Position numbers and translations under genes: made by a program | Source: Chromatiales bacterium | Lineage (GTDB): Bacteria > Pseudomonadota > Gammaproteobacteria > Granulosicoccales > Granulosicoccaceae | DNA: 43,757 nucleotides | NCBI GenBank assembly: GCA_020631335.1 | Contig: JAHDHK010000010.1 | Span: 1-43,757 of the forward strand | Reading direction: 5' to 3' | Shown here: piece after piece, positions 5,319-9,389 of the stretch | Position numbering within the stretch: position 1 is the stretch's first letter | Layout of the letters: every line of letters starts with the position of its first letter | The notes under the pieces: generated by a model | The model's database searches: none | Told to the model about the DNA's origin: nothing | Seen by the model: the letters and a program-made list of their open reading frames with translations, nothing else

Positions 5319-7230
5319 TCAGTCGTCAGGATTACCGATAACGCCGCGTTGCTTGAGAATGCTGATCACCTTCTCGGCACACTGTTCAGCGGACATGTTG
5401 GATGTGTCTACCAGAATCTCGGGAGACTCCGGCCTTTCATACGGTGAATCAATACCGGTGAAGTTTTTCAGTTCTCCGCGTCGTGCCTTTTTGTAGAGAC
5501 CTTTGGGGTCTCTTTCTTCGGCGACCGATAGCGGCGTCTCTACGTAGACTTCCATAAATTCACCGTCATCGAGCAGGTCTCGCGCCATTTTCCGCTCGGC
5601 GATAAACGGAGATATAAATGCGGTTAATACGATTAGACCACTGTCTACCATAAGACGTGATACTTCGCCGATACGTCGGATATTCTCGACACGATCAGCG
5701 TCGGTAAATCCCAGATCTTTGTTCAGCCCGTGTCTGACGTTGTCGCCGTCGAGCAGGTAGGTATGTCGCTTCGGTGAGTTTGCGTTCGACAATATTGGCG
5801 ATAGTCGACTTGCCGGAGCCGGAGAGTCCGGTAAACCAGACAACACAGGACTGTTGCTTTTTAAGTTCTGAGCGTTTTTTCTTGTCAACGTCTACCGCCT
5901 GCATATGTATGTTCTGCGAGCGCCGTAGTGCGAAGTTCAATATGCCGGCGGCAGCAGTCGCATTGGTCAGGCGGTCGATCAGAATAAAACTGCCGGTAGT
6001 GCGATTATCAGCAAAGGCGTCAAAAGCAATCTGACGATCGAGGTTCAGATTGCACAGTCCGATGGCATTGAGTTCCAGTTTTTTAGATGCCACATGCTCG
6101 AGTGTATCTACATTAACTTCATATTTTATGTCTGTTACTGTCGCCACAGCGGTGGCGGTGCCGCATTGAATGTTGTACTCGCGACCCGGTAGTAACGGTT
6201 CCTCGTCCATCCATATGAGCGTGCTCTCGAACTGGTTGGCGGTACTGGCCGGTGTTTCTGTGGTGGAGATGATATCGCCACGTGAAACATCTATTTCATC
6301 GGCCAGTGTGACAGTAACCGCCTGTCCCGCAATGGCTTCTTCAATATCTCCATCGTAGGTGACGATTCTGTCGATGTTGCTTGTTTTGCCGGAAGGCTGG
6401 ATTCGGACATTATCTCCCGTTTTGATTTTTCCACTGGCTACTGTGCCGGCGAAGCCACGGAAGTCGAGATTCGGTCTGTTGACCCATTGCACTGGGAGCC
6501 GGAATGGCTGATCCAGTGAGTCAACAACATCGAATGGCAAAGTTTCCAGGCAGGATAGCAAGGTAGTGCCATGATACCAGGGCGTGTTTGTACTGGGTGC
6601 GATGATATTGTCGCCCTGTAGTGCAGACAGCGGAATAGCGGTGATCTGTGTGATCCCCTGTGCTGATGCAAACTCTTTGAAAGTATCAACTATGGTGTTG
6701 AACTTGTCTTCTGAGTACCCGATCAGATCCATTTTGTTCACAGCCAGAACAACGTTCTCAATACCGATAAGCGACACAAGATAGAGGTGGCGTTTGGTTT
6801 GCGTTAGTACTCCCTTGCGCGCATCAATCAGAATAACGGCGGCATCGACATTGGACGCGCCCGTGATCATGTTGCGCGTGTATTGTTCATGCCCCGGGGT
6901 GTCGGCAATAATGAATTTGCGCTTTGCGGTGTTGAAGTAACGATAGGCCACATCAATGGTGATGCCCTGCTCACGTTCCGCGCTTAAGCCATCTACCAGC
7001 AGCGCGTAGTCGAGATCATTCCCTTGAGTGCCATGCTTGATCGATGCCTGTTTTGCGCTTTCGAGTTGGTCTTCTGGTAGTGCATTGGTTTCAAATAGAA
7101 GCCGTCCAACCAGCGTGCTTTTACCATCGTCAACGCTGCCGCAGGTAATGAACCTGAGCATGTCTTTGTTTTCATCGTCTGCCAGGTAGGTGTCGATGTC
7201 TGCTTTGATCTGTGTGTCTGCAACTGCCAT
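5319..7230 (-). pseudogene. cysNC: Bifunctional CysN/CysC, frameshifted in APS kinase domain
   Basis: The first 486 codons encode the sulfate adenylyltransferase GTPase subunit CysN: P-loop GSVDDGKS (31-38), DTPGH (110-114), NKMD (165-168), the EF-Tu-like beta barrels, then the start of APS kinase with its P-loop GLSGSGKST (468-476). Just after the ERKLT segment the frame shifts near 5769-5776. The rest of CysC ([13 protein letters not shown], the FISPF segment, [24 protein letters not shown]) continues in another frame to 5319. Joined, the product would be about 637 residues, the usual CysNC length. As read, the 511-residue product keeps all of CysN but loses APS kinase. The start overlaps the cysD stop (TAATG), so the two are translationally coupled. 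A sequencing error cannot be excluded. Confidence 0.85.
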
Positions 7231-8939
7231 TAGAAGTATCCTTCCTGCTTTTTGCGCTCCATAGAGCCTGCGCTGTCGTGATCTATCATCCGTCCCTGTC
7301 TTTCAGAGCCGGCGGTATTTAATGTTTCCCGGATGACTTCCGGTACTGTTGTCGCGGTTGATTCGATGGCTGCACTGAGCGGGTAGCAACCCAGTGTTCT
7401 AAAGCGGACGCTTTTCATAATGGGGGCTTCGCCTGGGTTCATTGGCAGGCGTTCGTCATCTACCATTATCAGCTGCCCGTCGCGTAGTACGACTGGTCGC
7501 TTTGCAGCGAAGTACAGGGGTACCACCGGTATGTTTTCGCGGTGGATGTATTGCCATACATCGAGCTCTGTCCAGTTGGAAATCGGAAAGGCCCGTATGC
7601 TCTCACCTTGCGCTTTGCGTGCGTTGTAGAGGTTCCATAGCTCCGGTCGCTGGTTTTTCGGATCCCATCGGTGATCTGTCGTTCTGAACGAAAACACCCG
7701 TTCTTTCGCGCGAGAGGCTTCCTCGTCGCGACGTGCGCCGCCAAACGCGACGTCAAAGCCGTGTTTGTCGAGGGCCTGCCGAAGTGCCTGGGTTTTCATA
7801 ATGTCGGTATGCAGTGCCGAACCATGTGTGAATGGATTGACGCCTTTATCAACGCCTTGCTTGTTTGTGTGAACAAGCAGTTCCAGGCCGAGCTTTTTAG
7901 CGGTGCTGTCCCGGAATGTGTACATGTCTTTGAATTTCCATCCGGTGTCGACATGAAGTAAGGCAAAGGGTGGTTTGGCCGGATAGAAAGCTTTCATCGC
8001 CAGGTGCAGCATAACGGCGCTGTCCTTGCCGATTGAGTACAACATGACCGGTTTGTCAGCACTGGCGACAACCTCTCTCATGATGTGAATGCTCTCCGCT
8101 TCCAGTCTTTGGAGATGGGTAAGCGATGTCATTGTTGACGGATTCCTGATAGGTGAGTTTGAAACGGTTTCTGTTGAGCGTGTGTCACACTCGGCTTTCG
8201 GTGATCGATCCGGCAGCGCAATGACGCTGATCAGCGGTTGCCCGCTGAGGAACGTTTGAAAGTGGTCATTGCGCAGCATGTTTTGATCGGAAAACACCAG
8301 TGCAAGTGGTGCGTTATGGTGATGCAGCAGTTTGCTGATGAAATCGCAGGCGTGTGCAATGTTGTCTGACGAGTCGTCAGCCAGCCAGAAGTACTTGCCG
8401 CGCGGGTTGTGGGCAAACATCACTGTGATGTTGTCGATCAGCGAGCGTCCCATCCATAAAAGTGTTGCGCCACTGTGATTTGCCTGTTCGCGAAAAGCTT
8501 TGTAGTCGGTGTTCAGCCAGTCGATCTCGGTCCCCGAAGTTTTGCATTGCGTGTACAGGCTGGGGTGGCTTAGACCCCATTGTTCGAGGTAGCTCCCAAT
8601 CGATCGACTGCTGATTGTTTTGCCGAACCTGCGTTTGCAAACGTCACTGAGCAGTGTCTGGGACCAGGGGTCACCATTTTCCGGACGGGTAATTGCAATA
8701 CACCGAAGTTTTTCCAGTAAATCATCAGGGGCGGCCAGATTTCCTGCCTTGCGACCCCGGGGTTTGGTATCGACCGCGGGCCACCCGCCGGCTAAAAACT
8801 GCTTGTGCGCAGCGATAATGGTGGGTGCGGATAAGTTAACTTTTCCGGATATTACGGATATTTTCTGGCCTTCCAGGCGCATTTTCACCGCAATTCGGCG
8901 CCGTTCGTTCAGTGACAGATTGGTTGTAGTGTCGCTCAT
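7230..8939 (-). CDS. cysD: CysD with transposase-derived N-terminal extension
   Basis: One uninterrupted 569-codon frame. Residues 270-569 are sulfate adenylyltransferase subunit 2 (CysD), with YSIGKDSAV (PP-loop nucleotide binding), [18 protein letters not shown] and [12 protein letters not shown] motifs and normal CysD length (about 300). With CysN it makes adenosine 5'-phosphosulfate from ATP and sulfate. Residues 1-269 look like an IS630-family transposase: a helix-turn-helix (about 8-50), a GRKAG linker, a winged-helix-like segment (about 72-125), then a DDE-fold remnant. By eye the first catalytic Asp is replaced by G164 (LLWMGRS), the second may survive as D218 (VFSDQN) and the final Glu is absent. 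No stop separates the two parts. CysD could also start separately at 8132. A regulatory role for the extension is inference. Confidence 0.85.
8132..8147 (-). promoter_or_regulatory. Possible internal translation start for plain CysD
   Basis: The ATG at 8132-8130 begins a 300-residue CysD of standard length. AGGA lies 11 bases upstream (minus strand, 8144-8147), longer than ideal but usable. If used, the cell makes both a long fusion and a normal CysD, or only the normal one. Confidence 0.5.
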
Positions 8940-9389
8940 TTACTTTCTGATTTACGGCAATAATATCTGACAATAAAATATTTAATGCGAAATTAAAAAT
9001 TTAATTGCAAGAACTGTGCAACCATTCACTCGCTTTGATAACGTGGGGTTTTTTCCAGCAGGTCGTTTGCCGTTTTTAATGGTTTGTCAGGGCAGGAGGT
9101 GCACAAGGCTGATATCTCCGAGGCTGATAACCGTGAGGCTGTTCCTCGCCCGCTCCTGTTCAGTCCGGGTGCTTCACGCACTTTTTATGGAAGGATGATT
9201 GAGAGACTGTCGGGATTAGCTCGACGGTGTGCCGGATAATGGCGGGGATCCATCCGGCAGGCCGACCGACCGGCGCCGATGGCTGAGTCTCATTGCTGAT
9301 GGCCGGGTCGCTTTACGCTGGCAACGCGCCGGTGAGCTTTTGACGTGTTATGCTGATTCGGGTGTAGCAAATCACCGCAGGAGGAGCCC
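8940..9389. other. Upstream region of cysD operon and RHH gene
   Basis: A 450-bp gene-free stretch between divergent genes. The 70 bp next to the cysD operon are strikingly AT-rich and contain an inverted repeat (8991-9006). Further in are three 15-base imperfect tandem copies sharing gaggctg (9105-9149) and a 7-bp hairpin (9231-9237 with 9252-9258). A frame open across 9229-9456 has no binding site or domain and is not called. Confidence 0.5.
8991..9006. promoter_or_regulatory. AT-rich inverted repeat upstream of cysD fusion
   Basis: Perfect 7-base arms (AATTAAA, TTTAATT) around a two-base spacer, 52 bp upstream of the fusion gene's ATG. Its position within an AT-rich promoter-like region suits an operator, perhaps for the fusion's own helix-turn-helix domain. 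Binding is not shown. Confidence 0.4.

Follow-up and report, generated by a model that had tools for sequence, protein, structure and literature searches.

Enzymes such as BirA, PutA and NadR are joined to a DNA-binding domain and regulate their own pathway. Control of sulfate activation usually falls to separate factors, an example being CysB, which normally regulates cysDN. The locus described here resembles BirA, PutA and NadR in joining an enzyme to a DNA-binding domain, but the enzyme is a different one, the domain is derived from a transposase, and its binding to DNA is a prediction. Within sulfur assimilation, PAPS reductase A of the fungus Tuber melanosporum is an enzyme with a transcription role (PMC4848566); it is reported to carry a C-terminal activating peptide and no helix-turn-helix (HTH), whereas the CysD fusion has an HTH. 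A literature search, with coverage that lacked most subscription journals and preprints, found no paper on a fusion of a transposase module to CysD.

The window, a 43,757-nt stretch of a Chromatiales bacterium genome (contig JAHDHK010000010.1), contains a fused gene of 569 codons at positions 7230–8939 of the minus strand, reading from 8939 to 7230, which encodes an IS630-derived module (hereafter the extension), a linker and CysD, the small subunit of ATP sulfurylase, and which is found in the same form in relatives. As the initial annotation had stated, this is a single open frame with zero stop codons between the N-terminal part and CysD; the plus strand of the same interval is interrupted by stops. 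Within the extension, and likewise on the minus strand, a first HTH (approximately residues 5–66, positions 8742–8927) is the best conserved part, followed by a second, winged-helix-like segment (approximately residues 67–156, 8472–8741) with a weak HTH_33 match at residues 92–124 and helices in the structural model, and by a degenerate DDE, or RNase H-like, remnant whose catalytic residues are lost (approximately residues 157–245, 8205–8471). A low-confidence and probably flexible linker (approximately residues 246–272, 8124–8204) leads into a complete CysD domain, for which residues 267–569 match NF009214 at 539 bits (cut-off 413) and the usual start corresponds to Met270, the internal ATG at 8132, just where the complete CysD had been said to begin (8132 down to 7233, where its codons end). 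Both the full-length match above the cut-off and the adjoining cysN (5695–7230, minus strand), whose ATG overlaps the cysD stop codon, are as in a standard CysD; the difference lies in the roughly 245-residue N-terminal module and its linker. The genome of the window (5.58 Mb in 368 contigs) holds one extension and one CysD. Downstream, within 5319–7230 on the minus strand, the cysN frame breaks inside the APS-kinase domain and the remaining cysC lies in a different frame, shifted relative to cysN (5319–5888, minus strand), unlike the single continuous cysNC frame of relatives; this may be an assembly error or a genuine break.

The proposed resemblance of the extension to an IS630-family transposase held up: the NCBIfam model transpos_IS630 (NF033545) matches residues 14–125 with E 2.4e-11 and 43.6 bits, well under its 100-bit cut-off, HTH_23 matches along with HTH_33, HTH_29 and HTH_32, all below their Pfam gathering scores, and the Pfam search returned no DDE_3 match in the window's fused protein. 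Against 11 full-length IS630 transposases, a profile of 28 related extensions gave an alignment of 254 columns with a probability of 99.9% and E 9.4e-33, a relation that at the level of sequence far exceeds chance. Because the 28-row alignment was trimmed at approximately residue 250, the end of this match is uninformative on the last catalytic residue, and the catalytic residues were counted in an untrimmed alignment, two rows of which lack the region, of 10 transposases with 66 extensions, 65 of them fused and one the separate gene of genome G397. The first catalytic Asp is present in 10 of 10 transposases versus 3 of 66 extensions, 39 of which have Gly; G164 of the window's protein falls in this column, in agreement with the replacement noted initially. 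For the second Asp the counts are 10 of 10 versus 0 of 66, and for the Glu 10 of 10 versus 2 of 66, the Glu column lying in a poorly aligned linker. The NPxE motif that carries the final Glu occurs in none of the 65 fused sequences, in line with the initially reported absence of this residue. Compared with an active IS630 transposase (a Tc1/mariner-like family), the extension shows homology over the HTH and DDE fold and the same order of HTH, winged helix and DDE fold across the 254 columns, but falls below the curated cut-off, lacks the catalytic Asp, Asp and Glu, occurs once in the window's genome, and is fused to CysD. From these alignments, the approximately 245 N-terminal residues are the descendant of an IS630-family transposase that lost catalysis. 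Since the catalytic residues are lost, the first HTH is conserved, the fusion is kept across families and the genome has one copy, the view of the initial annotation that the extension is a domesticated transposase, not an active element, is well supported.

An AlphaFold2 model built from a 30-row alignment (mean pLDDT 80.8, pTM 0.50) gave pLDDT values of 83–97 for the extension, except at residues 1–10, 61–70 and 241–250, with HTH helices, an RNase H-like strand order, and a linker of low confidence (pLDDT below 50 at residues 248–271). How the two halves interact is not shown by this model because of its pTM of 0.50. With the model as query, the best Foldseek match was CysD of Pseudomonas syringae (1zun_A), and the transposases TnsB and Mos1 were found at E 2e-4 and 4e-4, respectively. 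A search of solved structures with the extension profile produced weak matches only, mostly to the DNA-binding tail of sigma-54.

Among 57 genomes near that of the window, 32 match the extension, 30 of them in one frame with CysD; of the remaining two, G031 is cut by a contig end and G056 has a plain IS630 transposase. Considering the window's family specifically (36 genomes, G000–G035), the fusion occurs in 30, which account for all 30 CysD genes found there. The family genome search matched neither extension nor CysD in G003, G017 and G030, and G018 and G021 lack the extension and have weak CysD matches that are PAPS reductases. A scan of named genomes, which used a 12-row HTH alignment and could detect only things resembling its two peptide patterns, yielded 52 loci, some from the same genomes as the near-relative set. 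Fifty of these encode both parts in a single frame, the contig ending inside CysD in three of them, and in the other two the contig ends after the extension. The loci include Granulosicoccaceae (home of the window's nearest relatives), Methyloversatilis, Azohydromonas, Amphritea, Marinobacterium, Guyparkeria, Halothiobacillus, Pusillimonas, Advenella, Achromobacter, Comamonas, Limnohabitans, Sterolibacterium and Rhodocyclaceae. Run on 369 sampled genomes of the class, the extension profile gave matches in 31; five of these carry the fusion (G000, G016, G020, G192 and G395) and one has a separate gene (G397), and of the others ten were read individually and are IS630 transposases. The fusion is widespread yet not common. 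Comparison of cysD loci in relatives had been suggested as a check, and the occurrence of the fusion in 30 of 36 family genomes and 50 of 52 named-genome loci rules out a fresh insertion or misassembly confined to this strain, the first of two objections raised in advance. A 597-codon cysD frame in G160 was rejected as a further fusion; its arginine-rich stretch has no match to the extension profile, and because this long frame arose by chance, frame length alone was not taken as evidence.

Both the sequence and the model place an enzyme domain next to a DNA-binding domain, a feature of autoregulatory (trigger) enzymes. The reading we favor, and consider rather probable, is that the fusion, an enzyme subunit, also controls the cysD-cysN(C) operon that encodes it, through the transposase-derived HTH. 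The HTH, probably dimeric, would recognize a palindrome near ATTAAnnnnTTAAT at this operon's promoter, and the CysD half would be the working small subunit of ATP sulfurylase, whose state (whether it is assembled with CysN or has substrate or product bound) would alter DNA binding and thereby exert feedback on sulfate activation. Repression would be the likelier direction, a guess from the position of the site because a simple scan detected no sigma-70-like promoter upstream of the fused gene on the minus strand. Where the CysD boundary carries a ribosome site and an ATG, as it does in the window, free CysD would be made beside the fusion, and where no start codon is nearby CysD would be made only as the fusion. 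Our opinion is evenly balanced on a fuller version, in which a domesticated transposase joined to ATP sulfurylase has become a single-target transcription factor that senses its own state and represses its own operon via one genomic palindrome, with an internal start in some lineages setting the ratio of regulator-enzyme to plain enzyme. If true, this conserved enzyme-regulator fusion would represent a self-contained second circuit for sulfate activation with a short predicted operator that is often unique in the genome, could explain cysDN control in a genus without detectable CysB, and would offer a clear example of a bacterial transposase that became a transcription factor attached to a metabolic enzyme.

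The role of CysB as the usual regulator, named in the initial annotation, stands outside the family, where 17 of 18 genomes (17 fusion hosts plus G397) keep CysB and only G192 lacks it; in the window's genus none of 14 genomes matched the E. coli CysB query at E 1e-50. CysB, a LysR-type protein unrelated to the fusion, is also present in the family members G016, G020 and G023 (54–56% identity). Another regulator may therefore act in these 17 genomes and three family members, a point against the favored reading, and replacement of CysB by the fusion as a general rule was rejected on the count of 17 in 18. A physiological variant, which we hold tentatively and rate somewhat below an even chance, is that PAPS for sulfation comes from the fused operon, separately from the sulfate reduction that CysB controls. 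None of the 21 fusion-bearing family genomes searched has a CysH over the NCBIfam cut-off, as this variant would have it, but nine of them contain a weaker PAPS-reductase-like frame, which speaks against it; in G009 and G002 that PAPS-reductase-like gene adjoins a Sat-like gene (named by eye), which again speaks in its favor. The 18 genomes outside the family are similarly divided, with more than one CysD match in 12, in favor of the variant, and the fused CysD as the sole match in 6, against it. By eye, the extended cysD of G192 and G095 sits among polysaccharide-looking genes, yet no sulfation gene was recognized in a scan of 20 proteins encoded around the operon in the window, and Sulfotransfer_3 matches in the window's genome were weak (best E 1e-6). 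Control of the PAPS supply apart from CysB-regulated assimilation is a possible function. As separate observations made by eye, extended cysD genes lie among capsule- or polysaccharide-looking genes in G192, G395 and G095 (loci L097, L098 and L180), surroundings that hint at a sulfated polysaccharide, and a Sat-like ATP sulfurylase stands with a PAPS-reductase-like gene in genus relatives without an over-cut-off CysH (L216, 3257–5215; L218, 217–2208).

Under the favored reading of an autoregulating enzyme subunit, an operator would be expected at the promoter, and an A+T palindrome was first suggested by reading the upstream regions of seven groups. With patterns picked with part of the data in view, and among related genomes that are not independent, 29 of 64 fused genes have TTAAnnnnTTAA within 200 bases upstream (shuffle mean 1.0, maximum 4 in 200 shuffles), and 41 of the 64 upstream regions have either TTAAnnnnTTAA or the half-site TGTTTAAY (shuffle mean 2.6, maximum 7); the 23 regions with neither count against the favored reading. 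As controls, TTAAnnnnTTAA was found in 2 of 2,713 other 200-base windows of the same loci, in 5 of 837 overlapping GC-matched windows, and in 0 of 24 regions upstream of unfused cysD (27 loci, 24 usable, whose upstream 250 bases are not always promoters). Less open to this bias is the looser TTAA-N2-6-TTAA, which was fixed between the seven-group reading and the inspection of the 18 Granulosicoccaceae outside the genus, of which 11 have it (shuffle mean 2.1, maximum 6). Eight other Gammaproteobacteria showed the palindrome in one and the half-site in four, and both were absent from the three Guyparkeria/Halothiobacillus loci checked. Within the genus, 11 of 14 genomes have TTGCAATTAAATATTTAAT with at most 2 mismatches; all 11 have one such match directly before the fused gene, and nine have no further match anywhere in the genome; G003, which lacks cysD, has no TTGCAATTAAATATTTAAT match at this threshold. 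The candidate operator of the window, TTGCAATTAAATTTTTAAT (8992–9010, minus strand), with its palindromic core TTAAATTTTTAA at 8993–9004, is its genome's sole match at up to 2 mismatches. Among the matches listed, CATTAAnnnnTTAATG occurs without mismatch once per genome, at the fused-gene promoter, in at least four of eight genomes searched, these four being Azohydromonas. A regulator with its own promoter as sole target would be expected to have just such a unique site there, and the association of the palindrome with the fusion gives the proposed regulation indirect support.

The same data bear on an unlikely alternative, that the module is functional otherwise, regulating other genes or tethering ATP sulfurylase to DNA or a partner, while the palindrome is bound by a different regulator. 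The 23 of 64 fused genes preceded by neither palindrome nor half-site would fit this, as would the CysB and further regulators of most hosts outside the family and the conservation of the HTH in these lineages as well; the way the palindrome tracks the fusion, being absent before every usable unfused cysD and often unique in the genome, argues against it.

Start codons near the CysD boundary were surveyed in 66 non-redundant sequences, one of them from G037. An ATG lies within 6 codons before the conserved CysD start in 29; in 21, the window's among them, an AGGA-like sequence precedes an ATG or GTG located within 16 codons (a raw count). Because the window has a Shine-Dalgarno-like AGGA (8147–8144, minus strand) ahead of the ATG at 8132–8130, two products are likely there, and free CysD is probably also made from this gene beside the fusion. 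Within the 25 codons before CysD, by comparison, 9 of the 66 sequences have no ATG or GTG and 5 have no start codon of any kind, which argues that the fusion is needed in some lineages and disposes of the second advance objection, that all CysD starts at the boundary. CysD thus comes only with the extension in some lineages and probably in both forms in others. These counts cut both ways for the proposal that free CysD, translated from the internal ATG, does the enzymatic work, with the extension being in effect a separate upstream regulator gene with a lost stop codon and the full fusion mattering little: the frequent ATGs and AGGA-like sequences agree with it, as does the separate module gene of G397, but the start-less sequences do not, and we consider it improbable.

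Selection on the two halves was compared in 21 pairs of related sequences, with no value taken from pairs with saturated synonymous sites. Where defined, dN/dS was 0.02–0.19 for the first HTH, 0.12–0.66 for the extension beyond it, and 0–0.13 for CysD, and all 12 invariant columns among 30 diverse sequences fall within residues 14–63. Purifying selection, for which a check had been suggested, is thus strong on the first HTH and looser on the rest: the HTH behaves as a working domain and the remnant as a loosely constrained one. It is very improbable that the extension rides along as a neutral transposase scar on the N terminus, since the fast evolution of the remnant and its loss in G016 and G029 would suit it but the low dN/dS and invariant columns of the HTH and the intact frame in 30 of 30 family CysD genes do not.

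Several variants of the fusion occur, two of which, the HTH without the remnant and the separate module gene, count in favor of autoregulation. G016 and G029 have lost the rest of the extension and retain the first HTH, joined by a short linker to CysD. In G397 (L096, 5073–6837) the module forms a gene of its own, ending 55 bases upstream of the likely ATG of cysD, which is followed by frames resembling cysNC and cysQ (named by eye); this arrangement of module then cysD is a two-gene version of the fusion, in a genome with a second cysD elsewhere. No copy of the module was found near any of 29 other unfused or otherwise extended cysD loci (27 distinct genes, many with only 1.5 kb per side). 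A different N-terminal extension of cysD, with no Pfam match and no recognizable HTH, is present in G037 (L050) and G095 (L177), and its middle matches the DDE remnant (hhalign probability 91.5%). In a quickly built tree of 86 CysD cores, of which 56 are fused, 28 unfused and 2 of the G037 kind, 39 of 83 inner branches are unresolved; on it the fused state requires 6 changes compared to 24.9 in shuffles, and the starred branches force at least 3. On a few occasions the fusion has been gained, lost or passed between lineages, alternatives among which the tree cannot choose. Relatives of the extension also occur on plasmids, where 15 of 24 records listed comprise 9 on annotated IS630 transposases and 6 on unannotated sequence. 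On a Cupriavidus oxalaticus plasmid (L219, 6001–6624), an unannotated extension-like stretch lies between copper-resistance genes.
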